Assembly (NCBI RefSeq): GCF_947623445.1
Contig: NC_135244.1
Location: 16,802,860 to 16,866,859, forward strand
Direction of reading: 5' to 3'
Length of the DNA: 64,000 bases
Source of the DNA: Clavelina lepadiformis
Lineage: Eukaryota; Chordata; Ascidiacea; Aplousobranchia; Clavelinidae
The first letter of the stretch is position 1. Each line of letters starts with the position of its first letter. Positions 1 to 47,500 of the stretch are shown in pieces. The notes under the pieces were generated by a model. That model made no database searches. It had not been told where the DNA came from and was given only the letters and a program-made list of their open reading frames with translations. A program made the translations under genes and the position numbers.

Positions 1-55
1 GAACCCGTAACTAGTGCTTGGAAGGCACCAATGCTAACCGTTACACCATCGACGC
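1..55 (-). tRNA. tRNA-Gly(UCC), copy 1, cut by window edge
   Basis: Only the 5' part is inside the window: acceptor 5' strand, D-arm, anticodon arm with loop CTTCCAA, and part of the T-arm. The first T-stem pair is altered (plus strand CCCGTAACT instead of CCCGGAACT). Confidence 0.75.
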
Positions 56-267
56 TGTTGCTGTTGTACAAGAATACAATGTTTTCGTCTTAGACATACC
101 TCAATTAACACAAAGTATATTAATTATATATCTGCTTCTAATGTTAAATGTTACACCATCTACGCTGATGTTGAAATGCATGAATACAATGCATCGGTTT
201 TAAATCGAATACAATGTATTTTTTTTGTTATGCATCAACTGAAAGTAAACCAAGAATTCAATTAGTC

Positions 268-339
268 TGCGTCGACCGGGAATCGAACCCGTAACTAATG
301 CTTGGAAGGCACCAATGCTAACCGTTACACCATCGACGC
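268..339 (-). tRNA. tRNA-Gly(UCC), copy 2
   Basis: 72 nt including discriminator A. Anticodon loop CTTCCAA. The outer T-stem pair is A-G instead of C-G, and the anticodon stem has an additional G-U pair; otherwise the cloverleaf is kept. Confidence 0.75.
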
Positions 340-551
340 TGTTGCTGTTGTACAAGAATACAAGGATTTCCACTTAGATATACCCCAACTGAAAATAATA
401 TGCTAATCTATAAATCTGCTTCTAATGGTAAATGTTACACCATCGATGTTGATGTTGAAATGCAGAATTACCATGTATAGAATGTACACAAAATACAATG
501 CATTCTTCTTGTTATACATCAACTGAAAGTAAACAAAGAATTCAGTTAGTC

Positions 552-623
552 TGCGTCGACCGGGAGTCGAACCCTGTACTAGTGCTTGGAAAGCACCAAT
601 GCTAACCATTACACCATCGACGC
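552..623 (-). tRNA. tRNA-Gly(UCC), copy 3, diverged
   Basis: 72 nt. Position 32 of the anticodon loop is T (loop TTTCCAA), the T-stem is altered (plus strand ACCCTGTACT) and the D-loop has one change. The anticodon is still UCC, but several changes make function doubtful. Confidence 0.6.
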
Positions 624-843
624 TGTTGCTAAATTGAAACAGAACAATGTTTTGGTCTTAGGTAAACGTCAACTGAAAGTAATTGCACAATTCTATACAT
701 CTCCTTCTAATGCTAATGCTAAATGTTTCACCTTCTACGCTGATGTTGAAATGCTTGTATACAATGCATGGGTTTTATACCGAATACAATGTATTCTTCT
801 TTGTTATGCATGAACTGAAAGTAAACAAACAATTCAGTTAGTC

Positions 844-915
844 TGCGTCGACCGGGATTCGAACCCGGAACTAGTGCTTTGAAGGCACCAATGCTAACCG
901 TTACACCATCGACGC
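844..915 (-). tRNA. Gly-type tRNA with anticodon UCA, copy 4
   Basis: 72 nt with intact acceptor stem (GCGTCGA/TCGACGC), canonical T-loop TTCGAAT and T-stem. The anticodon loop reads CTTCAAA, so the anticodon is UCA, which would pair with UGA. This is the only change in the anticodon arm. It is structurally one of the better copies. Expression and charging cannot be judged from sequence. Confidence 0.8.
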
Positions 916-1132
916 TGTTGCTGTTGTACACGAATACAATGTTTTCCACTTATATAACTTATACCTCAAATAAAAGAAGTATGCTAATCTATAAATCTGC
1001 TTCTAATAATAAAGGTTACACCATCGATGCTGATGTTGAAGTGCAAAATTATCATTTATAGAACGTACACTTAATACAATGCATCTTTATTGTTATACAT
1101 CAACTGCAAGAAAACAAAGAATTCAATTAGTC

Positions 1133-1204
1133 TGCGTCGACCGGGAGTCGAACCCGGAACTAGTGCTTGGAAGGCACCAATGCTAACCGTTACACCATCG
1201 ACGC
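1133..1204 (-). tRNA. tRNA-Gly(UCC), copy 5, consensus
   Basis: 72 nt, matches the array consensus: 7-bp acceptor stem, anticodon loop CTTCCAA, T-stem CCGGG/CCCGG and internal B box GGTTCGACTCC. Class flank shared with copy 17. Confidence 0.93.
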
Positions 1205-1410
1205 TGTTGCTTTTTAACAAGAATACAATGTATTTTACTTAGATATACCTCAAATAAAAAAAGTATGCTAATCTATAAATCTGCTTCTAATAGTAAAGGT
1301 TACACCATCGATATTGCAGTGCAGAATTATCATGTATAGAATGTACACAGAATGCAATGCATTCTTCTTGTTATTCATCACCTGAAAGTAAACAAAGAAT
1401 TCAATTATTC

Positions 1411-1482
1411 TGCGTCGACCGGGAGTCGAACCCGTAACTAGTGCTTGGAAGGCACCAATGCTAACCGTTACACCATCGACGC
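1411..1482 (-). tRNA. tRNA-Gly(UCC), copy 6
   Basis: 72 nt, anticodon UCC. Only the outer T-stem pair departs from consensus (plus strand CCCGTAACT), as in copies 1 and 2. Confidence 0.85.
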
Positions 1483-1695
1483 TGTTGCTGTTGTACAAGA
1501 ATACAACGTTTTCCACTTAGATATACCTAAATTAAAATAAAGTCTGCTAATATAGAATTCTGCTTCTAATAGTAAAGGTTACACCATCGATGTTGATGTT
1601 GAAGTGCAAAATTATCATGTATAGAATGTAGACAGAATTCTATCCTTTTTTCTTGTCATACATCAACTGAAAGTAAACAAAGAATTCAGTTAGTC

Positions 1696-1767
1696 TGCGT
1701 CGACCGGGAGTCGAACCCGGAACTAGAGCTTGGAAGGCACCAATGCTAAACGTTACACCATCGACGC
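1696..1767 (-). tRNA. tRNA-Gly(UCC), copy 7
   Basis: 72 nt, anticodon UCC. One change in the anticodon stem (plus strand AGAGCTTGG) breaks a pair and one D-loop base differs. Confidence 0.75.
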
Positions 1768-1979
1768 TGTTGCTGTTGTACAAGAATACAATGATTTCCA
1801 CTTAGATATACCTAAACTAAAAAAAATATTCTAATCTATAAATCTGCTTCTAATAGTAAATGTTACACCATCGATGTTGATGTTGAAATGCAGAATTACA
1901 ATGTATAGAATGTACACAAAATACAATGCATTCTTCTTGTTATGCATCAACTGAAAGTAAACAAAGAATTAAGTTAGTC

Positions 1980-2051
1980 TGCGTCAACCGGGAGTCGAAC
2001 CCGGAACTAGTGCTTGGAAGGCACCAATGCTAACCGTTACACTATCGACGC
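1980..2051 (-). tRNA. tRNA-Gly(UCC), copy 8
   Basis: 72 nt, anticodon UCC. The 3' acceptor strand has a G-to-A change on the plus strand that only converts a pair to G-U wobble. One further change lies in the D-stem/acceptor junction. Confidence 0.85.
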
Positions 2052-2268
2052 TGATGCTGTTGTACACGAATACAATGTTTTCCACTTATATAACTTATAC
2101 CTCAAATAAAAGAAGTATGCTAATCTATAAATCTGCTGCTAATGGTAAAGATTAAACCATCGATGTTGATGTTGCAGTGCAGAATTATCATGTATAGAAT
2201 GTACACTTAAAACAATGCATCTTTCTTGTTATACATCAACTGCAAGTAAACAAACAATTCAATTAGTC

Positions 2269-2340
2269 TGCGTCGACCGGGAGTCGAACCCGGAACGAGT
2301 GCTTGGAAGGCACCAATGCTAACCGTTACACCATCGACGC
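2269..2340 (-). tRNA. tRNA-Gly(UCC), copy 9
   Basis: 72 nt, anticodon UCC, all stems paired; one change in the variable loop. Its flank matches copies 17 and 25, marking the start of the eight-unit higher-order repeat. Confidence 0.9.
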
Positions 2341-2548
2341 TGTTTTTGTTTTACAAGAATACAATGTGTTTCACTTAGATATACCTCAAATAAAAAAATA
2401 TGCTAATCTATAAATCTGCTTCTAATAGTAAAGGTTACACCATCGATGTTGATGTTGAAGTGCAGAATTATCATGTATAGAATGTAGACAGAATACAATG
2501 TATTCTTCTTCTTCATCAACTGCAACTAAACAAACAATTCAATTAGTC

Positions 2549-2620
2549 TGCGTCGACCGGGATTCGTACCCGGAACTAGTGCTTGGAAGGCACCAATGCT
2601 AACAGTTACACCATCTACGC
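2549..2620 (-). tRNA. tRNA-Gly(UCC), copy 10, recombinant and decayed
   Basis: 72 nt, anticodon UCC, but the T-loop reads TACGAAT (invariant T55 lost) and an acceptor pair is broken by plus-strand TCTACGC. Immediately after the tRNA body the flank is that of a deleted relic, so the next tRNA lies only 175 bp away. This looks like an unequal exchange between a full tRNA and a relic. Confidence 0.55.
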
Positions 2621-2723
2621 TGATGTTGAAATGCAGGAATACAATGCATCGGTTTTAAATCGATTACAATGTATTTGTTTTGTTATGCATCAACTGAAAT
2701 TTAAAAAAACAATTCAATTAGTC

Positions 2724-2795
2724 TGCGTCGTTCGGGAGTCGAACTCGGAACTGGTGCTTGGAAGGCACCAATGCTAATCGTTACACTATCGACGC
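2724..2795 (-). tRNA. tRNA-Gly(UCC), copy 11, variant class with T-run
   Basis: 72 nt, anticodon UCC with fully Watson-Crick anticodon stem. T-stem has two mismatches (CCGAG against CCCGA) and the last acceptor pair is A-A. A run of seven T on the coding strand follows about 15-20 nt after the 3' end, a good Pol III stop. Same class as copies 19 and 27. Confidence 0.65.
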
Positions 2796-3006
2796 TGTTG
2801 CTGTTATATAAAAATACAATGTTTTCCACTTAGATATACCTCAATTAAAAAAGTATGCTAATATATAAATTTGTTTCTAATGTTAAATGTTACACCATCT
2901 ACGCTGATGTTGAAATGCATGAATACAATGCATCGGTTTTAAATCGAATACAATGTATTTTTTTTATTATGCATCAACTGAAAGTAAACAAAGAATTCAA
3001 TTAGTC

Positions 3007-3078
3007 TGCGTCGACCGGGAATCTAACCCGTAACTAGTGCTTGGAAGGCACCAATGCTAACCGTTACACCATCGACGC
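3007..3078 (-). tRNA. tRNA-Gly(UCC), copy 12, diverged
   Basis: 72 nt, anticodon UCC. The T-loop has lost invariant C56 (TTAGATT) and the outer T-stem pair is A-G, so the B box is damaged. Confidence 0.6.
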
Positions 3079-3289
3079 TGTTGCTGTTGTACAAGAATAC
3101 AATGATTTCCACTTAGATATACCTCCACTAAAAAAAAATGCTAATCTATAAATCTGCTTCTAATGGTAAATGTTACACCATCGATGTTGATGTTGAAGTG
3201 CAGAATTACAATGTATAGAATGTAAACAGAATGCAATGCATTCTTCTTGTTATTCATCACTTGAAAGTAAACAAAGAATTCAATTAGTC

Positions 3290-3361
3290 TGCGTCGACCG
3301 GGAGTCGAACCCGGAACTAGTGCTTGGAAGGCACCAATGCTAACCGTTACACCATCGACGC
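3290..3361 (-). tRNA. tRNA-Gly(UCC), copy 13, consensus
   Basis: 72 nt, identical to the array consensus by eye: intact acceptor, D, anticodon (CTTCCAA) and T arms. Confidence 0.93.
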
Positions 3362-3576
3362 TGTTGCTGTTGTACAAGAATACAATGATTTCCACTTAGA
3401 TATTGCTCAATAAAAAAAAAGTATACTAATATATATAAATCTGCTTTTAATAGTAAAGGTTACACCATCGATGTTGATGTTGAAGTGCACAATTATCATG
3501 TATAGAATGTACACACAATACAATGTATCTTTCTTGTTATACATCAACTGCAAGTAAACAAAGAATTCAGTTAGTC

Positions 3577-3648
3577 TGCGTCGACCGGGAGTCGAACCCG
3601 GAACTAGTGCTTGGAAGGCACCAATGCTAACCGTTAAACCATCGAAGC
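3577..3648 (-). tRNA. tRNA-Gly(UCC), copy 14
   Basis: 72 nt, anticodon UCC and consensus T-arm. One acceptor mismatch at pair 3-70 (plus strand CGAAGC) and one D-arm change. Confidence 0.75.
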
Positions 3649-3860
3649 TGTTGCTGTTGTACAAGAATACAATGATTTCCAATTAGATATACTTCAACAA
3701 AAAAAAATATGCTAATCTATAAATCTGCTTCTAATAGTAAATTTTACACCATCGATGTTGATGTTGAAATGCAGAATTACCATGTATGGAATGTACACAA
3801 AATACAATGCATTCTTCTTGTTATGTATCAACTGAAAGTAAACAAAGAATTCAGTTAGTC

Positions 3861-3932
3861 TGCGTCGAGCGGGAGTCGAATCCGGAACTAGTGCTTGGAA
3901 GGCACCAATGCTAACCGTTACACCATCGACGC
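3861..3932 (-). tRNA. tRNA-Gly(UCC), copy 15
   Basis: 72 nt, anticodon UCC. T-stem carries two changes (plus strand GAGCGGG and GAATCCGG). Flank class matches copy 3. Confidence 0.7.
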
Positions 3933-4146
3933 TGTTGCTAAAGTGAAACAGAACAATGTTTTGCTCTTAGATAAACGTCAACTAAAACTAATTGCACAAT
4001 TCTATACATCTGCTTCTAATGCTAAATGTCACACCTTCTACGCTGATGTTGAAATGCTTGTATACAATGCATGGGTTTTATACCAAATACAATGTATTCT
4101 TCTTTGTTATGCATCAACTGAAAGTAAACAAATAATTCAGTTAGTC

Positions 4147-4218
4147 TGCGTCGACCGGGATTCGAACCCGGAACTAGTGCTTGGAAGGCACCAATGCTAA
4201 CCGTTACACCATCGACGC
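4147..4218 (-). tRNA. tRNA-Gly(UCC), copy 16, intact
   Basis: 72 nt, anticodon UCC, T-loop TTCGAAT, all stems paired. It is the counterpart of UCA copy 4 in the 12-unit duplication, and keeps UCC. Confidence 0.93.
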
Positions 4219-4435
4219 TGTTGCTTTTGTACACGAATACAATGTTTTCCACTTATATAACTTATACCTCAAATAAAAGAAGTATGCTAATCTATAAATC
4301 TGCATCTAATAGTAAAGGTTACACCATCGATGCTGATGTTGAAGTGCAGAATTATCATTTATAGAATGTACACAAAATACAATGCATCTTTCTTGTTATA
4401 CATCAACTGCAAGTAAACAAAGAATTCAATTAGTC

Positions 4436-4507
4436 TGCGTCGACCGGGAGTCGAACCCGGAACTAGTGCTTGGAAGGCACCAATGCTAACCGTTACACCA
4501 TCGACGC
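4436..4507 (-). tRNA. tRNA-Gly(UCC), copy 17, consensus
   Basis: 72 nt, matches consensus in every stem and loop. Flank shared with copies 5 and 9. Confidence 0.93.
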
Positions 4508-4715
4508 TGTTGCTGTTTTACAAGAATACAATGTATTTTACTTAGATATACCTCAAATAAAAAAAAATGCCAATCTATAAATCTGCTTCTAATAGTAAAG
4601 GTTACACCATCGATGTTGATGTTGAAGTGCAGAATTATGATGTATAGAATGTAGACAGAAAACAATGTATTCTTCTTCTTCATCAACTGCAAGTAAACAA
4701 ACAATTCAATTAGTC

Positions 4716-4787
4716 TGCGTCGACCGGGAGTCGAACCCGGAACTTGTGCTTGGAAGGCACCAATGCTAACCGTTACACCATCGACGC
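4716..4787 (-). tRNA. tRNA-Gly(UCC), copy 18
   Basis: 72 nt, anticodon UCC; only a variable-loop change (plus strand AACTTGTGC). Confidence 0.9.
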
Positions 4788-5000
4788 TGTTGCTGAAGTT
4801 CAAGAATACAATGTTTTGCTCTTAGACATACCTCATTTAACACAAAGTATAATAATTATATATCTGCTTCTAATGTTAAATGTTACACCATCTACGCTGA
4901 TGTTGAAGTGCAGGAATACAATGCATCGGATTTAAATCGAATACAATGTATTTTTTTTGTTATGCATCAACTGAAATTTAAAAAAACAATTCAATTAGTC

Positions 5001-5072
5001 TGCGTCATTCGGGAGTCGAACTCGGAACTAGTGCTTGGAAGGCACCAATGCTAATCGTTACGCTATCGACGC
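5001..5072 (-). tRNA. tRNA-Gly(UCC), copy 19, variant class with T-run
   Basis: 72 nt, anticodon UCC. Same T-stem mismatches as copies 11 and 27, plus a D-arm change. Preceded on the plus strand by a seven-A run, which is a T7 stop on the coding strand. Confidence 0.6.
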
Positions 5073-5284
5073 TGTTGCTGTTATACAAAAATACAATGTT
5101 TTCCACTTAGATATACCTCAATAAAAAAAGTATGCTAATATATAAATTTGTTTCTAATGTTAAATGTTACACCATCTACGCTGATGTTGAAATGCTTGTA
5201 TACAATGCATGGGTTTTATACCAAATACAATGTATTCTTCTTTGTTATGCATCAACTGAAAGTAAACAAACAATTCAGCTAATT

Positions 5285-5356
5285 TGCGTCGACCGGGAGT
5301 CGAACCCGGAACTAGTGCTTAGAAGGCACCAATGCTAACCGTTACACCATCGACAA
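5285..5356 (-). tRNA. Gly-type tRNA with anticodon UCU, copy 20
   Basis: 72 nt. The anticodon loop reads CTTCTAA, anticodon UCU (codon AGA). The first acceptor bases are also altered (plus strand CGACAATG), giving a mismatch at pair 1-72, so this may be a pseudogene. Confidence 0.55.
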
Positions 5357-5573
5357 TGTTGCTGTTGTACACGAATACAATGTTTTCCACTTATATAACT
5401 TATACCTCAAATAAAAGAAGTATGCTAATCTATAAATCTGCATCTAATAGTAAAGGTTACACCATCGATGTTGATGTTGAAGTGCAGAATTATCACGTAT
5501 AGAATGTACACTTAATACAATGCATCTTTCTTGTTATACATCAACTGCAAGAAAACAAAGAATTCAATTATTC

Positions 5574-5645
5574 TGCGTCGACCGGGAGTCGAACCCGGAA
5601 CTAGTGCTTGGAAGGCACCAATGCTAACCGTTACACCATCGACGC
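5574..5645 (-). tRNA. tRNA-Gly(UCC), copy 21, consensus
   Basis: 72 nt, consensus sequence throughout; anticodon UCC. Confidence 0.93.
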
Positions 5646-5859
5646 TGTTGCTAAATTGAAACAGAACAATGTTTTGGTCTTAGATAAACGTCAACTAAAA
5701 CTAATTGCACAATTCTATACATCTGCTTCTAATGCTAAATGTCTCACCTTCTACGCTGATGTTGAAATGCTTGTATACAATGCATGGGTTTTATACCAAA
5801 TACAATGTATTCTTCTTTGTTATGCATGAACTGAAAGTAAACAAATAATTCAGTTAGTC

Positions 5860-5928
5860 TGCGTCGACCGGGAGTTGAACCCGGAACTAGTGCTTGGAAG
5901 GCACCAATGCTAACCGCACCATCGACGC
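5860..5928 (-). tRNA. tRNA-Gly(UCC), copy 22, 3-nt D-arm deletion
   Basis: 69 nt instead of 72. Three bases are missing from the D-arm (plus strand ACCGCACC in place of ACCGTTACACC), which removes part of the A box. The T-loop has one change. Probably not functional. Confidence 0.5.
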
Positions 5929-6141
5929 TGTTGCTGTTGTACAAGAATACAATGTTTTCCACTTAGATATACCTAAATTAAAAAAAAGTATATTAATATA
6001 GAATTCTGCTTCTAATAGTAAAGGTTACATCATCGATGTTGATGTTGAAGTGCAAAATTATCATGTATAGAATGTAGGAAGAATTCTATGCATTTTTCTT
6101 GTCATACATCAACTGAAAGTAAACAAACCATTCATTTAGTC

Positions 6142-6213
6142 TGCGTCGACCGGGAGTCGAACCCGGAACTAGTGCTGGGAAGGCACCAATGCTAACCGTT
6201 AAACCATCGACGC
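6142..6213 (-). tRNA. tRNA-Gly(UCC), copy 23
   Basis: 72 nt, anticodon UCC, but position 37 is C (loop CTTCCCA) and one D-arm base differs. Confidence 0.75.
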
Positions 6214-6425
6214 TGTTGCTGTTGTACAAGAATACAATGATTTCCACTTATATATAACTCAACTAAAAAAAATATGCTAATCTATAAATCTGCTTCTAAT
6301 GGTAAATGTTACACCATCGATGTTGATGTTGAAATGCAGAATTACCTTGTATAGAATGTACACAAAATACAATGCATTCTTCTTGTTATGCATCAACTGA
6401 AAGTAAACAAAAAATTAAGTTAGTC

Positions 6426-6497
6426 TGCGTCGACCGGGAGTCGAACCCGGAACTAGTGCTTGGAAGGCACCAATGCTAACCGTTACACCATCGACGC
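6426..6497 (-). tRNA. tRNA-Gly(UCC), copy 24, consensus with T-run
   Basis: 72 nt, consensus body, anticodon UCC. The 3' flank on the coding strand has a T6 run within about 20 nt, so this is the one copy that combines a consensus body with a strong Pol III stop. Confidence 0.94.
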
Positions 6498-6711
6498 TGT
6501 TGCTAAAGTGAAACAGAACAATGTTTTGCTCTTAGGTAAACGTCAACTAAAACTAATTGCACAATTCTATACATCTGTTTCTAATGCTAAATGTCACACC
6601 TTCTACGCTGATGTTGAAATGCTGGTATAAAATGCATTGGTTTTATACCAAATACAACGAATTCTTCTTTGTTATGCATCAACTGCAAGTAAACAAACAA
6701 TTCAGATAGTC

Positions 6712-6783
6712 TGCGTCGACCGGGAGTCGAACCCGGAACTAGTGCTTGGAAGGCACCAATGCTAACCGTTACACCATCGACGC
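6712..6783 (-). tRNA. tRNA-Gly(UCC), copy 25, consensus
   Basis: 72 nt, consensus body, anticodon UCC. Flank matches copy 9 almost exactly. Confidence 0.93.
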
Positions 6784-6991
6784 TGTTTTTGTTTTACAAG
6801 AATACAATGTGTTTCACTTAGATATACCTCAAATAAAAAAATATGCTAATCTATAAATCTGCTTCTAATAGTAAAGGTTACACCATCGATGTTGATGTTG
6901 AAGTGCAGAATTATCATGTATAGAATGTAGACAGAATACAATGTATTCTTCTTCTTCATCAACTGCAAGTAAACAAACAATTCAGTTAGTC

Positions 6992-7063
6992 TGCGTCGAC
7001 CGGCATTCGTACCCGGAACTAGTGCTTGAAAGGCATCAATGCTAACCGTTACACCATTGACGC
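6992..7063 (-). tRNA. Gly-type tRNA with anticodon UUC, copy 26, decayed
   Basis: 72 nt. The loop reads CTTTCAA, anticodon UUC (Glu codons). The anticodon stem has an A-C mismatch and the T-loop has the same lost T55 as copy 10. Most likely a pseudogene. Confidence 0.45.
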
Positions 7064-7276
7064 TGTTGCTGAAGTTCAAGAATACAATGTTTTCGTCTTA
7101 GACATACCTCAATTAACACAAAGTATACTAATTATATATCTGCTTCTAATGTTAAATGTTACACCATCTACGCTGATGTTGAAATGCAGGAATACAATGC
7201 ATCGGTTTTAAACCGAATACAATGTATTTTTTTTGTTATGCATCAACTGAAATTTTAAAAAACAATTCAATTAATC

Positions 7277-7348
7277 TGCGTCGTTCGGGAGTCGAACTCG
7301 GAACTTGTGCTTGGAAGGCACCAATGCTAATCGTTACACTATCGACGC
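7277..7348 (-). tRNA. tRNA-Gly(UCC), copy 27, variant class with T-run
   Basis: 72 nt, anticodon UCC, T-stem mismatches as in copies 11 and 19, T6 run just downstream on the coding strand. It is the last recognisable full copy before the array ends. Confidence 0.62.
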
Positions 7349-7544
7349 TGTTGCTGTTATACAAAAATACAATGTTTTCCACTTAGATATACCTCAATTA
7401 AAAAAGTATGCTAATATATAAATTTGTTTCTAATGCTAAATGTTACACCATCGATGTTGATGTTGAAATGCAGAATTACCATGTATAGAATGTACACAGA
7501 TTACAATGCATTCTCCTTGTTATGCATCAACTGAAAGTAAAAAA

Positions 7545-8035
7545 AACTTTGTGCCTCATTTAACTTTGTGCGCTATAAAGTTATTGCGATCTTTTATTCG
7601 GTATGGGAATCCAGGATATATGAACATATACTTTATCCGGTTCCTACAACCGTAGATATCTAATTTCTTCAAGATTTGGAAGCTTGTCATGACGTTCCAG
7701 TACGTACTCTACAGATTTGCAGTTAATATCGATATTATTACCACCTTTTTTCTTCACAAGTCCCACGAGACATTTTAATGAGAATTTAATCTTTCAAACA
7801 TTTTCCAAAGATCATCTCTTTTGGTACCATAAGCTACTCTAAATGGTAAGCAATTTGGTCGAGCATACTCCATATGCATTAGTTTCTTTTAAACTTTTTC
7901 CTAGTAGGAAACGGGTTTACTTTCTGCCATTATTTTCAGGTGCAAAAATTTAACAACGTAACCGGAAATAATGGGTGACAACGATGTTTTTGTTACGAGG
8001 AAATTAAAAGGAAATTTACAAGGTAATCAACATGA
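7545..8035. other. Spacer between tRNA array and relic field
   Basis: No coding exon, RNA gene or repeat recognised. Sequence is unrelated to the array unit. Confidence 0.5.
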
Positions 8036-8042
8036 ATAAACA

Positions 8043-8107
8043 GAGACTCGAATACTGAACAAAAGCTTGGAAGTCACAATTGCTAACCGTTACACCATTG
8101 AAGGTGT
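8043..8107 (-). pseudogene. tRNA-Gly relic 1
   Basis: Retains plus-strand GCTTGGAAG (anticodon) and GCTAACCGTTACACCATT (D-arm and acceptor), while the T-arm is barely recognisable. Confidence 0.6.
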
Positions 8108-8182
8108 TGCATATATGCAAGAATACAACGAATTGATTTTACTTGTAAGGTTATTAAAAAAATATTACAAGGTTGTCAACGA

Positions 8183-8253
8183 GCGTAAACCAGGAGTCGA
8201 ACTCAAAGCTAGTGCTTGGAAGGCACCAATGCTAACCGTTACACCACCAACGC
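8183..8253 (-). pseudogene. tRNA-Gly relic 2, best preserved
   Basis: Close to the array tRNA: anticodon UCC, B-box-like GAGTTCGACTCC on the minus strand, but acceptor strands no longer pair. Confidence 0.65.
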
Positions 8254-8403
8254 TTTTGTTGTAACGCAAGATTACGAAGAATTACATTTAATAAAAGTTT
8301 TTCTGAAAAGTAAATGCTGGTTATTTGTTGTTGGAACGCAAGTATACGAAGATTTATTTTTCGCTAATTTGTAATTGAAAAGAAAATTGCTGGGTTATTA
8401 ATC

Positions 8404-8475
8404 TGTTTGGACCGAAAGTAGAAGCCGGAAATTCTGTTTGAAAGGTACAATTGTCTACAGTTACATCATTAATGT
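8404..8475 (-). pseudogene. tRNA-Gly relic 3
   Basis: Weak match in order: a T-arm-like GAAGCCGGAA, anticodon-arm-like GTTTGAAAGG, D-arm-like CAGTTACATCATT on the plus strand. Confidence 0.45.
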
Positions 8476-8553
8476 TAATGTTCAAAGGCAAGCATAAAAA
8501 GAATTACTTGAACTTATGCATCAACTAAAGCGAAAACTACTAATCCATTAACA

Positions 8554-8633
8554 TGCGTCGACCATGAGGCGAACAAGGAACTAGTGTTTGGAAAGCACCA
8601 ATGCTAACCATTACATTAATTAATTATCGACGA
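8554..8633 (-). pseudogene. tRNA-Gly relic 4 with 8-nt insertion
   Basis: Acceptor ends GCGTCGACC and ATCGACGA survive; an ATTAATTA-like insertion of about 8 nt splits the D-arm/acceptor region and the T-loop is lost. Confidence 0.6.
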
Positions 8634-8711
8634 TGTTGTTGAACGGCAAGAATACAAAATTTCTTTTCAGATATGAATCAACTATAAAGTAAATTACTAT
8701 TCTATGAACTT

Positions 8712-8788
8712 TCGTTTACCAAAAGTCTACTTGTAAACCGGAAATAGTACTTGGAGAGCACCAAGTTTAACAGTTACACCATCGAAGC
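8712..8788 (-). pseudogene. tRNA-Gly relic 5
   Basis: Plus-strand GGAAATAGTACTTGGAGAGC and CAGTTACACCATCGAAGC keep the order of the array tRNA; stems are broken. Confidence 0.5.
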
Positions 8789-8863
8789 TTTGTCGAAAGA
8801 CATGAATACAAATAATTAATTTTAGATATAGGCTACTTAAAAAATATTACTAGGTTATTAACC

Positions 8864-8933
8864 TGCGTCGACCGGTAGCCGACTATGGAACTATAGAGGC
8901 AAGCACCATTGCTAACTGTTACAACACCGACGC
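8864..8933 (-). pseudogene. tRNA-Gly relic 6
   Basis: Both acceptor ends (plus-strand TGCGTCGACCGG and CCGACGC) are kept, while the anticodon loop is destroyed. Confidence 0.55.
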
Positions 8934-9036
8934 TGTTGTTGAAAGCAATTGTTAAATAAAAGTTGGTTTTGGTTAATTAGAAGAAAATTACTAAGTTATT
9001 AACATAGTTTAATTAAAATAAAATAGGTTATTAATC

Positions 9037-9113
9037 TGCTTCTACACGGAGTCGAATCCAGAACTGTCATAATGCTTGGCAGACATCAATTCTAGCCGTT
9101 ATTATATCGACGC
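9037..9113 (-). pseudogene. tRNA-Gly relic 7
   Basis: Plus-strand GGAGTCGAATCC (T-arm), GCTTGGCAGACATCAAT and ATCGACGC remain. It is the last recognisable array relative. Confidence 0.5.
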
Positions 9114-23541: not shown

Positions 23542-26500
23542 ATGGGGCATTTTCGGATAGGCAATAACGATAATTGCATTTTGTCCCAACCCCAAGACGA
23601 AGACCCCGAAGTCAACGATGCAATCACAAGTAAGTATAAATGGATAAGTCATTGTGCTGTGAGACTGTGGTAAATTAATTTTTCTTCTCTTTCTTATTAT
23701 TCTAGCTTCCTTGAGTTTGTGTACTTTATTCTGTAACGGTTGTTGTGCGGCATAAATGTGTCGTTAATTTGATTTCCGTTATGTAAACCGCGCAGTTAGA
23801 TGTGGAGAGGACGAAGAAATTGTCTGCTCCAGATCAGGTTTAGCAAAAATAAGCGACTACTTTCGTGCATGTTTATTCGGGAATTTCCGTGAGAAAAATG
23901 ATGACTATATAAGCTTGCCATATGTAGCCGGGGACCTTTTTGTCACCTTGCTTCAATTTTATCCAGAATCAATTCATCTTACAGAGTAGGTGACGTACAG
24001 TAGGGTACTTCAAAGTAGTATGCTTTGGTTTAATATGCGGAATAGTAACTATAAAAATCATAACGACTTTTGATTATACTGTATACGCATCAGAGTTGTA
24101 AAGGGGGTCGGGCTTTTCCGGTCGGTTTCGGGCTGTTTGAAAACAAGACATTGTCCAGATTTAGACCAGAATTTATGCTGACACAGCATGGACAGCTTTG
24201 CGTCGTAATTTCACTTTCTTTGCAAAAATGATTGATGCGCATGCGCGCAGAGTGCTAAAAACCTCCCACAGAAAGCAACGTAGTAAAGGATGATAGTCAA
24301 AGAACGGCATCAAAAGATGATGATTTTGATTCATTCAGTAAAATTAACTTTCGGGCCTAATTCGGGCTTCAAATAAAAAACCGGGTTCGAGTTAACAATA
24401 TAAGGCACATTTACAACTCTGATATTGGCATATCTATTTCATTGTTCTGTTTGTTTATTTGTTGTCCTATACACTGTTATAGATCCAATAAGACTTCAAT
24501 TGATAACAAACTCATTGAAGATGTTAATCAAGCCTGGACACTCATTGAGATTGCTGATATGTTGTATTTGGAGCACGCTGCTCAAAAATGCGACGACTTT
24601 ATAATAGGACAAATAACTCCACAAAATTGTGTTGAAATCTGCCACTTGGCAGACACCTTTCATCGCTCAAATATTCTTCTTGAAGTCGTCCGAAAAATAG
24701 CTTTGTTTAGGTACTGTATTAATGACTTAACATTTCCATAACATTTTTTTTTGAAACTAAGCTTTTAACAGTCTTTTGCTGTCGTGTTTTAGATTTGGGA
24801 AAGGAGTTGAAAATCTTCTGGATTTTAGGCATTTATTTTGCAATAATCACTTACACGATGACAAAAATATTAAAGGTAACGAAGAAAACAAAGCAAATTC
24901 ACCAGACAACATTAATGAAGAAGACTTACAGACGATCTGTAATTTACTCAATCAGTACAAGTTTACCCACAAAATATTCGTTATTGGAGGTTATAACTTT
25001 CACGAACAGAGGGAAAATTCGACACAGAATGAATGCTTCTCTATCGACGCTGACGCGTTTAACACTGACGTCACAAAGGGCGTTTCAAGCAGCAGCGAAG
25101 TAGATAACGAATCTGTAGAGGACACTGCGTTATTATCTGACTATGGTTATAGTCAACAGGGAGCGGAAAATGATAGCAGAGACATCGTAAGCTTCACAAT
25201 CAATGAAAAGTCTCAATATAAACAAATTCATAATTTTCCAGACAAACTGTTAGAGGATTATAGAACTGTTCTTGTCGATACTTTTATCTATGTAATAGGA
25301 GGTATATATTATAAACAAAATTTACCTACTAACGCTACCTGGCGGTACGACACAAGACGAAACGAATGGCGCACGGTAGCTCCTTTAAAACATCCGAGGT
25401 AAAAACTTTCAAAGCAAATTTTTAATACACTTTCCCTCCAAATTTAACAACTTAAACAATGTCTTGTTACTTGCAGAATGGAACACTGCGCAACTACAGT
25501 GAAGGAAACTATTTACGTTTGTGGTGGTTACGATGGCAACGCTGTACACAAAACTACTGAGTCGTTCAACCCAGCAAAAAATAGTTGGTTGGCTCAGCCA
25601 GATATGCCAATCGGTGATTTCATTATGTATATTTACAGTATATTATGATCGTATACAAGTTTTTACCAAAGTAACTATAGTTGCTTGAGAAGATATTACC
25701 TGTTACGCTGTCGTCGAATTGACAAATTTTGTGCATGATTGTTGTGAGCAATATCATAATTTCAGGTGTCGGAAATGCTGCGTGTACGTCTGATGACGTT
25801 AATTTATACGTAATATGTGGTCAATTTGGCAACAAAAAAATTCATACAACGCGAAAAATTCAGCAATTCAACACGGTTACACAGCAATGGAGCCTGCCCG
25901 CCGAGTATGCGTCACCAGGTAATCTGGATCACGGTTGCGTTTTTTCAAAATATTGTAACTACAAGTAAACAACAGTAAGCAAGTAAAAGCAAGCTTTTCT
26001 ATAGTTTGCAAATAACTTCAACTTTTTATGAGAATGTTATAAAGAATAATCTGCTCAAATGTATGAAAGTGTTGTCATCTTTTTGAAGTTTGTTTATTAT
26101 TTGCCTATAGCCCTATATACAAACTGTTAACTACTTTACAATCCTACCCGCATCTTCCGAATAGAAAATAATCACTTTCTGACTGGTTGTATCTTTAAAC
26201 AGTCCATTCAAACAGTACCCGAATGTGTTGTATTTCTATAGTTTTCTATCCCCACTCTGAATATGGAATGAGCTGCGCCGTTCTTGAGGACGAGATCGTG
26301 ATCTTCGGAGGGCAAACTATCAGGGTAGATGCGTATAACATAAAGACGAAACAATGGAGAAGGTTAAAAAATGAAATTTATTCAATTCAATAAACTGAGA
26401 TTAAATTGTAGAATACACATGTTTGGGAGCAGTAACAAGCAAGGGTAGATCAAGCAAAAAAGCTTGTTTGGACGACTGGTCCTGCATTTCAAGTGTGTAT

Positions 26501-28268
26501 TGATAATTAATAAGTTAACTACAGCCGTTCACCATAAGCAAAACAGTTTAGATAAGTTAATGAAAGTATATAATAGGCATATTGCCTACGCTATACTGCT
26601 TTCACTTTGTTACCCATGCCACGCGTGATTATTAGATTATCATGTTTTCAGCAGGATTTAAATTGTTTTTGCCATTATTTCATATGCTAGGCTACAACCT
26701 TTGCATTTACACCACATCGTTAATTGAGACGTGTGACCTTGCAAACCCTTCCCATAAAATTTTTTCTTCGAACACCAATACATTGTTATAGAGACCCAAG
26801 TCATAGACTTGCATCGTATCTCATTATTCCAAAACTTGATTCCATGACTCGTGTCATATTCCAAAAGTTAGATGACTAGCTATTGGTTACGTCCATGCAA
26901 AAATGGTGGTATAGTAAGCAATGTTCCCTCTAATTTTTCACGAGTCTGAGCAAACACACTAACTCCCTGAGCGGTCCCTTCGACCAGTGTGAGCAACATC
27001 AGACGTGCAACGTGCGCACTGTGGCCATTATTATGCCTTTATTTTATTTTTAATTCAGGTTGGATTTTTTTCTTGTGCGCAGCACAGATTTTCTGTGCGC
27101 GGAGACCGTGTCAGCAGTGCGCATTCGCGCACGCGCGCAGCTTAGAGGGAACATTGATAGTAAGTCAAGTCTAAGTAGCCTATATACTTTACTATTTACC
27201 AGATTGAAAGACATGGAACACCGGCGAATTGACGCATCTGCTATCACGTTTAGAAACATCATACTGGTAGCTGGTGGCTACGACTACACTACAGGTAATG
27301 ACTAGGGCAACCAGTTTTTTGACCTAAAAATTTTAAATTTTGACCTTAAAATTTGCAAATTTTGACCTCATTTTGACCTAAAAAGTCTACATTTTGACCT
27401 TATTTTGACCTAAAAAGTTTACATTTTGACCTTATTTTGACCTAAAAAGTTTAAATTTTGACCTCATTTTGAAAAACGCTATACTGATAGTCTCTACACT
27501 GTCTACAGCAACTTTCTAATCTAAAGCTGCATTTAAAAATGACAAAATGCTTTTCTAGTGTTGACTTTTTTTTCGTTTCTGCGTATTAAGATTGACAACT
27601 TGCAGTTTCAAATGCAATGACGTCACATCGTGACGTCACCAAACGCGCTGAAAAGCCTTCCCTCTCTTTGTGGCTTGGGTTCTAAGTAAAATTTGCGGGA
27701 CTGGAATTGTTTGCGGTACAAGAAAAGAGAAAAACGGAAGAATAATATTACAAAATGGTTACAAAATTACAAGTTTAATAGATTTTGACCTAAAAAAAAG
27801 ACCTAACGAAACAATTTGACCGTATTTTGACCTAACGTAACATTTTGACTTTATCTGACCTAATAACTTCTATACCACACGTCGTACAAAGCTGAAATTT
27901 GTTTTGTGCTTGTTTCATAGCATTCTGAGCAGGTAAAAAAAAATTGACCATATTGACTTTTGGTTGCCCTAGTAATGACTAAGATATAAATGCATATCAC
28001 TTCACATCCAAACGAGCTTTTGCCGTTTTACTTTTGCTCTGTAAATTTTCGCTCTTGCACACTATAGGCCTGTTCATTGGTGGGTTATGTGACCTACAAA
28101 ACGTTAAAATATCTAAAATTTCATTTTGCAGGAGAATTTTTCAACACAATGGAAATATACAATAAGGACAAAGAATTATGGACGCTTGGCAAAACACTGC
28201 TTCCTCAATCGGCAAAAAATTTGGGTTTTTGCTACGTTTTTGATGTTGTACCACTAGACCTACATTGA
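23542..28268 (+). CDS. BTB-BACK-Kelch (KLHL-type) protein
   Basis: Nine exons: 23542-23629, 23796-23985, 24483-24710, 24793-25398, 25477-25613, 25766-25918, 26242-26362, 27203-27294, 28132-28268; 1752 nt, 583 residues, all junctions phase-consistent. Exons 1-2 give a BTB domain (ISDYFRACLFGNFRE), with a short N-terminus. Exon 3 gives a BACK/3-box region (IADMLYLEHAAQKCDDF). Exons 4-9 hold six Kelch blades, marked by VIGGYN, VIGGIY, CGGYDG, CGQFG, FGGQT and AGGYDY, each followed by a Trp. Exon 4 also carries a ~70-residue acidic Ser-rich insert between blades one and two (SSSSEVDNESVED), unusual for KLHL proteins. The family acts as substrate adaptors of Cullin-3 ubiquitin ligases, or as actin-associated proteins. 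The substrate cannot be inferred. Introns 2, 7 and 8 carry small DNA transposons. Confidence 0.93.
24091..24421. mobile_element. Small hAT-like element in Kelch intron 2
   Basis: 331 bp with terminal inverted repeats CAGAGTTGTAAA at the left and TTTACAACTCTG at the right. Interior has repeated TTCGGGC/GTCGGGC motifs. Flanking 8-mers (ATACGCAT, ATATTGGC) no longer match, so the target duplication is lost or my ends are slightly off. CAG-ends fit hAT elements. Confidence 0.6.
26919..27156. mobile_element. hAT MITE in Kelch intron 7
   Basis: 238 bp, terminal inverted repeats CAATGTTCCCTCTAA and TTAGAGGGAACATTG, flanked by the exact 8-bp duplication ATAGTAAG at 26911-26918 and 27157-27164. Eight-base duplication and end sequence are typical of hAT. 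GC-rich interior with alternating GCGC tracts. No coding capacity. Confidence 0.9.
27303..27971. mobile_element. hAT MITE at Kelch exon 8 donor
   Basis: 669 bp, ends TAGGGCAACC and GGTTGCCCTA, flanked by the exact 8-bp duplication GTAATGAC at 27295-27302 and 27972-27979. The left duplication begins at the first base of intron 8, so the element sits eight bases inside the intron and the donor GTAATGA itself is the duplicated target. Subterminal tandem TTTTGACCTA motifs are probable transposase-binding repeats. No coding capacity. Confidence 0.92.
27315..27475. repeat. Subterminal TTTTGACCT repeats of the hAT MITE
   Basis: About ten copies of TTTTGACCT followed by TA, CA or AA spacers, in pairs about 29 bp apart. 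A second, looser cluster is at 27783-27860 near the right end of the element. Confidence 0.85.
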
Positions 28269-43200: not shown

Positions 43201-44531
43201 TGAACTAACTAATAAGTAAAACTCTTCACGTGCAATATTTTCAACAAGAAAAATCACCTATTCTGTAGTTGATCGACACCACAACTGTGTTAGTTTCTTG
43301 ACTTAGTTTTTGTGCATCATAGGAGATAGCTGTTCCGCTTCCAAGAAAAAATGCTCCCCCATGTATCCAAAACATTACAGGAAGTTTTTTGTTAGCTGGC
43401 GCCGTAAGGTCAATAGTTGTTGGAACAAACACGTTGAGCACAAGACAATTTTCAGAATACTATGATATAATGAGTATGTGTTACAAACAAACAAAGAAGT
43501 TACATGCAACTAATTTTTAGAATTGTTAATTGAACTAAGTTATAACTAATCACTCACAAATTTACAACATTTAAAATCAATTCATAATATATAAAAGTTC
43601 TAAGAATGTTTACATATTTGTTGCTTGGAAGAGGCCCGAAAACAAAAAACTCATAACAGTTAACATAATCTGGAGAAGATTTATCAAGTGGTCCATTATC
43701 CAGAGCCATCTGTGGTTCCTGAAATCTTCAAAAACAAATAATTTTTAGTTTTCTTAAATCACGAAGATAGAACAAACAGAATTCGTAACACGACAGCTGC
43801 ATCAAAACGAAAAGTAGAATGTAAAATTAAAAAATGAAAAGTCTGAAAAGTGAAGGATAACGAATGCGGGTAGACACTGATGTATACAGATTATACTTTG
43901 TTACTCAAAAATCATGCTCGGTGGTCACTGCCATTTGTAGATGTTGAAGAAGTACTACAAAGCAGTGGGAGAAGTTCAACTATAGCTGGATATGCAACTC
44001 ACAAATAATGAACAGCCGAACGGATACACGACACCCGAATTTATAATGTAGTTTATTATATCAACATAAAGCTTGCGACTTGGAAACATAAACGCTATAT
44101 AACTTAAAGCATAGCTTTAACCAATAAAACATAAGTTAATAGTTGTTTGTGTGTTATAAATTCAATCCAAACTTTATACGGTTTTCGTTTGCCTTTTAAT
44201 ATATCTTTGTAAATAAAGCTTTAATCTTATACGAAAAAAATGCTTACCTTAAGTTTCCGACAGGTGGCTTAGCATAAGGGATGCTGTAAAAAGCATAACC
44301 ATTCTCATAACTTGCTCCTGTAATGAGGCCGCTACTAGTTTGCACTTTAGGGTAAGCAATGGGCTGTGTTAGAGGTCTTTTTGGTTCTGGTCTTAGATAA
44401 TGTAAAGAATTGAATGTAACCCCTGGAATTAACCGACTGAAAGCTGCTTCAAATCCGGCAAAAAATGGATCTATGGAGTCGACAGAAATTGCTAATGCAA
44501 AGACTATTAGCCCGATTACTATCAGTTTCAT
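40273..44531 (-). CDS. Carboxylesterase A, secreted
   Basis: Ten exons (minus): 44531-44248, 43725-43614, 43459-43258, 43174-43041, 42878-42664, 42558-42291, 42038-41887, 41759-41577, 41299-41173, 40473-40273; 1878 nt, 625 residues. Signal peptide MKLIVIGLIVFALAIS; I start at this Met because it gives the signal peptide at the very N-terminus, although the frame extends further up. Oxyanion motif [10 protein letters not shown] (exon 3), nucleophile elbow [11 protein letters not shown] (exon 5, catalytic Ser), acid Glu in GTLSEEVSIF (exon 6), His in CGYAFHGTDLLF (exon 8): the full cholinesterase-type triad. C-terminus is short and polar (KLSSNRCGN), so the protein should be soluble. It hydrolyses ester bonds; substrate unknown. 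Head-to-head with esterase B across 4.1 kb. Confidence 0.95.
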
Positions 44532-47500
44532 TTTTTGAACTTTTCTCGGTCTCTTGTACTTATAAATATCTAAAAACAAAAATACACGTTACGCCTTCCC
44601 TATAAAATGTTCTATTAAAGTGCTATAGGCTATAAATTTATTATAACTTAAGCCGATAAAAAGCATTTTCTTGCTTCTTGCCTATATTCGGTAGCTGTTT
44701 AAAAGGTTGTTGGAACAAAAAAATAAGTAAAATTAAAAGATTGTTTTGTCTTTTTGTATAGTAACCATGCTTTGTTGGTAAAATTCAGTCGAACAGTTCA
44801 GTGTAATCTGCATATTGTTATTGATAACTTTCAACCACAGCTTAATCGTTGTATAGGCCATATAGCTGAACACGACTTCATTTCAAGCAAATTGCCGATT
44901 CCCAACGTACGAAGTGAAATAAGCATAAAAGTAAATCGTCTGTGCACGCAATTCGTGATTACAAGTTCATTAGAGGAAATCACAAACTTCAACTAAACAG
45001 AATGTTCTGAAACCTTACAGCCGAAAAAAGTAATAACATTTCAACTGGAGCAAAGTTCTACGTTTCGTGACAGGAAGCACATTTGGCAGAGTTTTGCTTA
45101 TAATTACTTTTGTACTCCACAAAAGTACATTAAATTGTGACAATGCACAAATTTGCACAGGCAGGTAAAGTTGTGTGCCGATGCTTATATAACCCTATAG
45201 CTGCTTTAAGCCTTTTCTTTGCTTATATCATTTTACTATATAAAAAGATGGTTTTAAATTCTATACATGTTGGTGTAATATTATACTTACGTTTGTTTTA
45301 TTGCGAAATGACGAAATATTAATGCGGTTTGCAAGTGATCGAATAGGTTATTGGTGGTGTAAGTTGTAGATCATGAGCACGTCAAGGTAAAAATCTCCAT
45401 GAATTTTTAATGCAGATGACATTTATCGGTATCAGTCCTCACATACCAATTTACATTGGTAAACTTTGTGCTATTCTAGATAGAAAACAATTTTCAAAAC
45501 TTGCAAACAACGTAGACTATACATGCTATGCCAGTGTGAAAACGCATATGCGGTCCTGGTCTATAATTTCACAACATGTCAAACTGTATACTTACAACCT
45601 TTCACGTTAAGCAGGGTCGATTGTAGGCTGTGAACTAACATCAGGCGCGAAACAATATCATGATAAATTTTCGTGATCACATGTAACCTAGTCGAGTTTA
45701 TGAATACAAGTTTTTCTTATTAATAACTACTGTATAGGTTTTAACTGTCTGCTGTGACAAGAAAGCAGAATTTATAAATGAACAAACTCCAATACATTGT
45801 ACACCAAAACTGTAAATTAAAGTATACATATCTTGAAACATCATACAGATTATTAACTGATATAATGCATACATATTGCGTATATATGTATTACAGTCTG
45901 ATACATATAGTTATTTGACGAGAATACTTGCTAGCTCGTTATGAGAGCACTTCATTGTGCTCTACGACTTCTGGAGACAGTTTGGAAGCTCTGTAGAGTA
46001 CAATTAAGAAAAAGGTTTGTGTACTTTCATCAGGTTGAATTACGACTATCCAGATATGTGTCGAACCGGTTATGCTTGTATATGCATGCAAGGCCTGAGG
46101 CTCAATGCTACGTTTAATGGTGTATTTTATTCATTATAATTGTTGGTTATTGCTTGTATGTACAGTACGGCCTCGTAACGTGACAGGTTGTAATGCAAAA
46201 ATTAACATGTCAAATTCCATCATTCGCGCATTATTCGGATTAAAACAAGTGCTAATTAATTGAGCGTTTACGTCCACGATAACTCTACAACCAATAACAA
46301 AATTAATTACTGTACTTTCAACCTACAATTACTTGTTTTCATCAAAAGTGGTCAAACGTACCACAATTAAATCTAAAAACCTGCTTATCCATCAGTAAAA
46401 ATCATTAATAATATTAACAATTTTATAAAGTTTTAGAAGTTTTTAATGCAAAATATTAAAATTGTTGAATATTGATAAAAAGATGAAAGACAATTTACCA
46501 ATTGTTTCTTTTTCAATGGAGTGGACAACACGTTTATAATTTATTGGTAAAATCACATTTTGCATGGAAAATGGTTTAAAATAGTTTGGTGGTTTCAAAC
46601 TACAGACTTTGGCAAAGAGTTTGACAATAAAGGAAAATGGTTTTGTCTTGTCCAGTTGTAACTTTTTCGTGTGGTTTTGCCATTTTAAATACATTCATAT
46701 GCTAACCCCCCAAGTGAAGTAGTTAAAAATTAAACTCATTTATTATACAAATAATACATTAAGTTGATTAAAAAATTAACAATATTGCAACTTTAACTTC
46801 ACATTTGGTAATAGATGAAATAATATAGCTGTGTTGATGCTTATACAAAATTCTGACATATTTGATATGATTTAAAGGACGGCTATGAATCTAGTACAAG
46901 TTGGTGTATATATGTTTGTACTAGTGCAATATGTTTTAAATTCTCACGTCTTATTTGTATAGGTTGGTAAATGATAAGGATGACTGATGCAGTAGATCGT
47001 AAGGGTTAAAAATGCTTAAAATCCATGTGTATGAGACCACTTATGAGACTTTTTGGGTGAGAAATTTTGTTATGGCATTTCTACTATAGACCTATATGTT
47101 AAGTCAAAATCAAATAAATTTGCTCTAATAATAGTTCCAAGAATCTCAATCTCCACATCTCATTGCAGAATTAAAGCACCCATTGATCAAGTTCATAATA
47201 ATAGCGTGACATACTGTATCACAACGAATCACCAGATTCAAATTTATTTGTATCATCCAAGCAACATCGTGATATGACTCGTGGCAGGTGCAAAAAATTA
47301 TGGATTTTATAAAAAGACGTGTTTTGTTTTGACGGTTGATGACGTATTGATGATTTTTTGGTCTGTGGTAAGATAACCAACCGAATCCGATCTACGCTAG
47401 GCCCTAATCCGATATGGAAAGCAGAGGTAGATGCTGAAAATCTGAAACACCGGCATGCTGTGCATTACTGAAGTCTCCAAAAGATAATTGAGCGATTCCT

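Follow-up and report, generated by a model that had tools for sequence, protein, structure and literature searches.

Does a long tandem array of transfer RNA (tRNA) genes work as a gene cluster, or has it become a satellite repeat of which most copies can be spared? This question is raised by a 64,000-nucleotide stretch of chromosome 5 (C5:16802860-16866859, hereafter the window) of the ascidian Clavelina lepadiformis, whose 209.06-Mb genome lies in 95 contigs. The left end of the window carries head-to-tail copies of tRNA-Gly(UCC), alternating almost throughout with a centre-deleted tRNA that is here called the relic. We consider it likely, with a probability of roughly three in four, that the array is a satellite derived from tRNA-Gly(UCC), in which most copies are dispensable and the relic is a passenger.

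A tandem array of tRNA-Gly(UCC) units

ARAGORN found 26 tRNAs at window positions 268-7348, all on the minus strand, and the Rfam model RF00005 recognised all 26 bodies at 30.2-64.5 bits, above its gathering score of 29, and in addition a body at 1-55 that the window edge cuts short. The 27 bodies in one orientation that an initial annotation had read from the letters alone were thereby recovered, and a cloverleaf search over the units succeeded for 26 of 26 bodies with both programs, so that a recognisable tRNA stands, head to tail, in every one of the 26 window units. The anticodon is UCC in 23 of the 26 and UCA (844), UCU (5285) or UUC (6992) in the rest. The same annotation had placed the array at 1-7540. 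It is present there, but this is only the right-hand tenth of a cluster of about 200 tRNA-Gly copies that runs far past the left window edge and spans C5 ~16.735-16.812 Mb (~77 kb), and on the right decayed copies go on to window position 9113. In the 174 kb around the cluster ARAGORN detected 199 tRNAs on a single strand, 190 of them Gly-UCC.

Tandem Repeats Finder gave a repeat period of 284, and chance is not an issue for this periodicity. A profile of the unit matched the cluster 236 times; 196 matches are near-complete (at least 255 of 284 columns) and form the set counted below, from which the 40 partial matches were excluded. A profile of the relic recovered 26 relics in the window over its full or nearly full length, including one beyond the last tRNA, and the described alternation of tRNA and relic holds except in one of the 26 intervals between tRNAs (2621-2723), where the relic is absent. 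The features of the array and its edge are listed below; tRNA rows come from ARAGORN and Rfam (1-55 from Rfam alone), and relic rows are profile spans that include a few flanking bases.

1-7546, minus, right-hand end of the dimeric tRNA-Gly array, unit ~284 bp (ARAGORN, Tandem Repeats Finder, Rfam, profiles)
1-55, minus, tRNA body cut by the window edge
126-179, minus, relic
268-339, minus, tRNA-Gly(UCC)
410-463, minus, relic
552-623, minus, tRNA-Gly(UCC)
695-754, minus, relic
844-915, minus, tRNA with anticodon UCA
991-1044, minus, relic
1133-1204, minus, tRNA-Gly(UCC), canonical 72-mer
1275-1321, minus, relic
1411-1482, minus, tRNA-Gly(UCC)
1556-1607, minus, relic
1696-1767, minus, tRNA-Gly(UCC)
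1838-1891, minus, relic
1980-2051, minus, tRNA-Gly(UCC)
2127-2180, minus, relic
2269-2340, minus, tRNA-Gly(UCC)
2410-2463, minus, relic
2549-2620, minus, tRNA-Gly(UCC) whose 5' side abuts the relic's usual flank, likely an exchange product
2621-2723, minus, relic-free interval
2724-2795, minus, tRNA-Gly(UCC)
2865-2918, minus, relic
3007-3078, minus, tRNA-Gly(UCC)
3148-3201, minus, relic
3290-3361, minus, tRNA-Gly(UCC), canonical
3435-3488, minus, relic
3577-3648, minus, tRNA-Gly(UCC)
3719-3772, minus, relic
3861-3932, minus, tRNA-Gly(UCC)
4004-4057, minus, relic
4147-4218, minus, tRNA-Gly(UCC)
4294-4347, minus, relic
4436-4507, minus, tRNA-Gly(UCC), canonical
4577-4630, minus, relic
4716-4787, minus, tRNA-Gly(UCC)
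4858-4911, minus, relic
5001-5072, minus, tRNA-Gly(UCC), weak, 30.2 bits
5142-5195, minus, relic
5285-5356, minus, tRNA with anticodon UCU
5432-5485, minus, relic
5574-5645, minus, tRNA-Gly(UCC), canonical
5717-5770, minus, relic
5860-5928, minus, tRNA-Gly(UCC), 3 nt shorter
6002-6053, minus, relic
6142-6213, minus, tRNA-Gly(UCC)
6284-6337, minus, relic
6426-6497, minus, tRNA-Gly(UCC), canonical
6569-6622, minus, relic
6712-6783, minus, tRNA-Gly(UCC), canonical
6853-6906, minus, relic
6992-7063, minus, tRNA with anticodon UUC
7134-7187, minus, relic
7277-7348, minus, tRNA-Gly(UCC), weak, 37.5 bits
7418-7471, minus, last relic; its edge unit (7349-7546) begins mid-spacer
7600-7937, unstranded, decayed sequence with 79.6% identity to a part of the array's retrotransposon (C5:16.756-16.762 Mb)
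8045-9113, minus, decayed monomeric tRNA copies (matches 8045-8101, 8183-8253, 8554-8615, 8735-8788, 8864-8933, 9037-9113)
8181-8253, minus, decayed monomer copy still scoring as a tRNA in ARAGORN, anticodon UCC

The unit is a dimer of homologous halves

On the sense strand, the unit consists of a tRNA of 72 nt, a first spacer of ~100 nt, a relic of ~36 nt and a second spacer of ~75 nt. Alignments bear out the description that the initial annotation gave of the relic, which retains the 5' acceptor and D arm together with the 3' tip (GCAGA) and has lost the anticodon and T arms; they also agree with its mention of an A-box-like segment without a B box, as the A-box core GGTGTAA is found in 142 of the 196 relics and a B-box-like motif in none of the 196 relic halves. 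Each half, defined as the tRNA or the relic with its flanks, was reduced to a consensus, and global alignment of the two gave a score of 112.5 against 55.0 ± 6.1 for 500 shuffles, showing that the relic derives from a tRNA by loss of its centre and is not unrelated sequence. The spacers, each aligned from behind its tRNA or relic, scored 51.5, with a maximum of 43.5 in 1000 shuffles. Aligned from in front they scored 36.0 (shuffle mean 19.6, standard deviation 3.7, maximum 40.0); as these are the same two spacers that are compared behind, this is not an independent test, and the two alignments were not counted as separate evidence that the unit arose as a dimer. The unit pairs two homologous halves, of which one holds a complete tRNA and the other a tRNA without its anticodon and T arms.

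Decayed monomers with a single tRNA each follow on the right-hand side of the array; they were divided into seven pieces of 116-209 bp. By eye, the 3' tip of the relic and its flank most resemble the monomer at 9037-9113, and the monomer at 8788 has the highest identity (0.657) to the relic half as a whole. The simplest reading is that the dimer probably arose within an older monomer array. The proposal that a tRNA was duplicated and the full-plus-deleted pair then amplified therefore stands as far as the pair is the repeated unit, but the ancestor was probably a tandem array of single tRNAs already.

Higher-order repeats and probable turnover of the array

The 196 units have a mean pairwise identity of 0.858, and neighbouring units are on average 0.851 alike. 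Runs of consecutive pairs with identities of at least 0.97 occur at lags of 7 units (1,984 bp; 10 pairs), 10 units (2,853 bp; 13 pairs), 12 units (12 pairs) and 17 units (14 pairs), and at further lags too, so that multi-unit blocks are more alike than neighbouring units, as in higher-order repeats. The right-hand edge is present twice together with its flank, the second copy lying 45,234 bp to the left; the two copies share 97.6% identity across 5.85 kb and 94.7% across 4.9 kb. Damaged tRNAs have been amplified as well, since a variant with two mispaired T-stem positions (pairs judged by eye) occurs in 11 copies. Two short intervals, 174 and 175 bp long, differ in their breakpoints, one in the 5' half shared by tRNA and relic and the other in the part of the spacer common to both halves; they look like, and are consistent with, exchange between halves. 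A non-long-terminal-repeat (non-LTR) retrotransposon with RVT_1 and Exo_endo_phos domains lies within the array (C5:16.756-16.762 Mb; L015:3653-9033). It bears reverse-transcriptase and endonuclease frames, and the decayed piece at window 7600-7937 resembles it.

Older monomers at the edge (window 8045-9113), as expected of a satellite, together with the homologous spacers and the inner higher-order repeats make the order of monomer, dimer and higher-order repeat legible on the chromosome. Alpha satellite likewise has monomeric edges and a higher-order core, whereas the Clavelina unit is based on a tRNA with a truncated partner. In the course of events that we favour, a monomer array would have come first, followed by the dimer and then by higher-order blocks, with amplification through unequal crossing-over and gene conversion and with halves that may still be exchanging. 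The array would once have fed the supply of tRNA-Gly(UCC), or working genes would have kept its copies alike; most copies would now be dispensable, with little or no present need for them, and the relic would be a hitch-hiking by-product maintained by array turnover.

A tRNA-derived short interspersed nuclear element (SINE) or an assembly artefact is scarcely credible as the source of this structure. Dimeric SINEs combine a promoter for RNA polymerase III (Pol III) with a B-box-free arm and a T-run, and the unit has all three. Among the at least 45 matches listed, however, no dispersed copy includes the non-tRNA part: the five outside the cluster cover the tRNA only, at most query positions 1-75. 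As for an artefact, the units differ by 14% on average and form distinct higher-order blocks, which a collapsed or duplicated assembly would not give, and the genome report describes 117-fold coverage with HiFi reads (PMC10884593).

Most tRNA copies are damaged or lack a near terminator

A tRNA was scored as intact when none of 21 stem pairs was mispaired and both the B box and a UCC anticodon were present, and tRNAs with gaps were scored as failing (9 copies). No stem mispair was found in 72 of the 196 copies, and 63 also kept the B box and anticodon, leaving 133 that fail these simple criteria. Among the 26 near-complete units starting in the window, one of which crosses the left edge and from which the body at 2724 is left out as part of a partial unit, nine passed. 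The commonest tRNA sequence occurs in 34 copies in the cluster and in five dispersed genes on C1, C4, C5 and C6. These five have different flanks, and in 5/5 a run of four or more T (T4) starts within 13 nt. In the array, such a run lies within 15 nt of the tRNA in 15/196 units and within 30 nt in 47/196; among the 63 intact copies the numbers are 4 and 24. The close, Pol III terminator-like T-run expected of expressed tRNA genes is thus missing from most array copies. Because identical dispersed genes with near terminators exist, most array copies would be dispensable, though a minority of intact ones may still be transcribed.

These counts also bear on a working dosage array, in which many copies would provide tRNA-Gly(UCC), either at all times or in a single tissue. 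The 34 canonical and 63 intact copies speak for it, as do the long-term constraint on the tRNA described below and the precedent of the SYY cluster reported as active in Arabidopsis root tips (PMC12308677). We nevertheless regard it as unlikely, given that 133/196 copies fail a simple integrity test, that near T-runs are found in only 15/196 while the five dispersed genes have them, and that recent changes accumulate in the tRNA at the rate of the spacers.

The T-runs are distributed unevenly within the unit. Runs of at least six T occur behind the relic in 107/196 units and in the 100 nt after the tRNA, before the relic, in 14/196; the first T4 falls behind the relic in 76/196, and 8/196 have none in the examined stretch. 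By eye, 6/7 of the flank monomers have T4 or longer some ~14-25 nt past the tRNA, the arrangement expected of a single gene. All this would fit a dimer that became one Pol III transcription unit by complementary loss, the terminator being lost in the full half and kept in the relic half, so that Pol III would read tRNA plus relic (~210-250 nt) and stop at the T-run behind the relic. Such a dimer would be a new kind of Pol III unit, in which transcription running through the relics would maintain them and tRNA precursors with relic-bearing trailers would be produced. It is improbable, since T4 or longer already precedes the relic in 109/196 units and tRNA integrity shows no coupling to the post-relic T-run in a thinned set of 84 units (rho 0.003, p 0.98); in the full set of 196, long T-runs are even rarer among units with intact tRNAs (25/63) than among the others (82/133; p 0.006). 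Folding of one tRNA-plus-relic transcript gave z = -2.48, for which the tRNA alone may account, and was not used.

Old and recent changes differ in the tRNA

Since the fold and function of a tRNA are known, the tRNA part offers an internal yardstick of selection. In a tree built from 166 distinct units, terminal-branch changes per site are equal in tRNA and spacers (2.89 and 2.89), whereas internal-branch changes number 0.72 per site in the tRNA against 1.68 in the spacers (p = 3.6e-7). As this tree leans on spacer sites, the comparison was repeated with one half of the spacer columns used to build the tree and the other half kept for the test, and the difference persisted (p = 8e-7). The same was seen without any tree: variants with a frequency of at least 10% number 0.028 per site in the tRNA (2 in 72) and 0.42 in the spacers (69 in 166), making common variants ~15 times rarer in the tRNA, while singletons number 0.78 and 0.55 per site, respectively. 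Decay of CpG sites was rejected as the sole source of the terminal changes in the tRNA, as the 56 non-CpG sites behave alike (2.48 terminal, 0.79 internal). A tRNA array on chromosome 9, used as a control, shows a weaker deviation in the same direction (0.155 singletons per site against 0.110, and 0.025 variants of at least 10% per site against 0.054, p = 0.014; 37/38 units distinct). These patterns suggest that the tRNA part was constrained or repaired in the long term and that recent changes pass freely, so constraint would now be relaxed. Gene conversion from working genes could yield the pattern of the tRNA part too.

Changes in the relic lie between those of tRNA and spacer. Compared with the spacer, the three tests gave p = 0.17, p = 0.016 (held-out tree) and p = 0.54; as they disagree, selection on the relic is not claimed and no relic function is shown. 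Of the two possibilities that the initial annotation had left for the relics, neutral or functional, the second thus lacks good support. That the relics are regulatory or boundary elements, such as A-box decoys or TFIIIC or insulator sites, appears very improbable. The A-box core and the somewhat depleted internal-branch changes on the held-out tree would agree with it, but B-box-like motifs are absent from all relic halves, and TFIIIC-only sites usually retain the B box. The other two tests were not significant, and exchange with the 5' half of the tRNA could account for relic conservation. A human tRNA array is reported to bind CTCF (PMC4041453), which lends the insulator idea a precedent.

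Several observations weigh against the array being a satellite of mostly dispensable copies that grew from older monomers. The array contains 34 copies that match the five dispersed genes in every letter, and together with the clear internal-branch constraint this indicates that selection, or conversion by working genes, has acted. Parsimony on the 84 thinned units gave 2.71 changes per site in the tRNA and 3.47 and 4.28 in the spacers (p = 0.03), a weak difference that is as expected if recent changes dominate, and recombination among units violates the assumptions of tree-based tests. The halves and monomers are mutually only 0.51-0.69 alike, so the parent monomer of each half cannot be singled out. 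Nor is a missing near terminator proof of silence, because the Leu-UAG genes of the chromosome 9 array also lack one (present in 1/30, counted in four 10-kb stretches); in the same stretches Lys has a near T-run in 29/33 and Leu-AAG in 33/33. Finally, pairs of tRNA-Glu and tRNA-Gly genes 5 nt apart exist in this genome.

These pairs, tRNA-Glu(UUC) and tRNA-Gly(GCC) with a T-run after the second only, lie at L033:2836-2984 and at L034:713-861 and 1523-1671, and are possibly dicistronic tRNA genes.

Comparison with known tRNA arrays

Tandem tRNA arrays or clusters are already known from Entamoeba, Arabidopsis, human and several animals. The Arabidopsis SYY cluster consists of tandem tRNA-Ser/Tyr genes (PMC12308677), and the tRNA-Cys cluster is described as carrying silenced copies whose sequence has drifted and, at one of its edges, a pseudogene (PMC10701932). 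The Clavelina array resembles these accounts in its tandem short units beside genes of the same kind, its sequence drift and its decayed edge; it differs in its length of ~200 units, almost all of which contain a truncated tRNA, in its higher-order repeats and in the decayed monomers at its edge. The human 1q23.3 tandem repeat, also a tRNA-bearing animal repeat, is reported with a 7.3-kb unit, 9-43 units per allele, a CTCF site and tRNA genes in <6% of the unit (PMC4041453), compared with 284 bp, one tRNA and one relic here. In Entamoeba, almost all tRNA genes are described as lying in long tandem arrays, with most copies uniform within an isolate (PMC2652664), while Clavelina has dispersed genes and variable copies. 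Clusters of fifty and more tRNA genes (tDNAs) are reported for Nematostella and teleost fishes, one figure showing interspersed pseudogenes (PMC2888827); they are large tRNA gene clusters of animals too, but a regular gene-plus-relic unit and an edge-to-core series do not appear in the available sections of that report. Catfish satellites with tRNA-derived parts are mentioned elsewhere (PMC11955569). In the open-licence literature we found no report of the Clavelina array, nor of any tRNA satellite in which genes and relics alternate regularly and monomers form the edge.

Pikes reportedly have amplified 5S ribosomal DNA with higher-order organisation, which is alike as a Pol III gene amplified to a higher-order array, the Clavelina array being tRNA-based with a truncated partner. 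One genome here displays all stages from gene to satellite, namely dispersed genes with terminators, decayed monomers, dimers and fresh higher-order blocks, and whether selection still watches gene-derived satellites is directly testable in it. Such arrays can also inflate animal tRNA gene counts.

Other features of the window and a second tRNA array

A 111-aa frame at 4486-4821 was rejected as a mechanical frame through the repeats. Kelch and carboxylesterase exons share the 64-kb window with the array: an exon of a Kelch-repeat protein lies at 24761-25402, and carboxylesterase-like exons lie close together at 44244-44588, 48601-48954, 59748-60095 and 60940-61317, of which the last alone passes the Pfam cut-off, the scores of the first three being too low. 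A short tandem repeat at 27317-27472 contains TTTTGACCT motifs and has units of ~21 and 32 bp.

The array on chromosome 9 forms blocks at C9 ~4.936-4.952 and 5.054-5.195 Mb (L027-L030, L036-L038), with none between 4.952 and 5.053 Mb among the matches listed. Its 1,180-bp unit carries tRNA-Lys(UUU), Leu(AAG) and Leu(UAG), and the 38 units compared are 97% alike. Each of seven 10-kb stretches holds 23-26 tRNAs, and the last stretch is full to its end.

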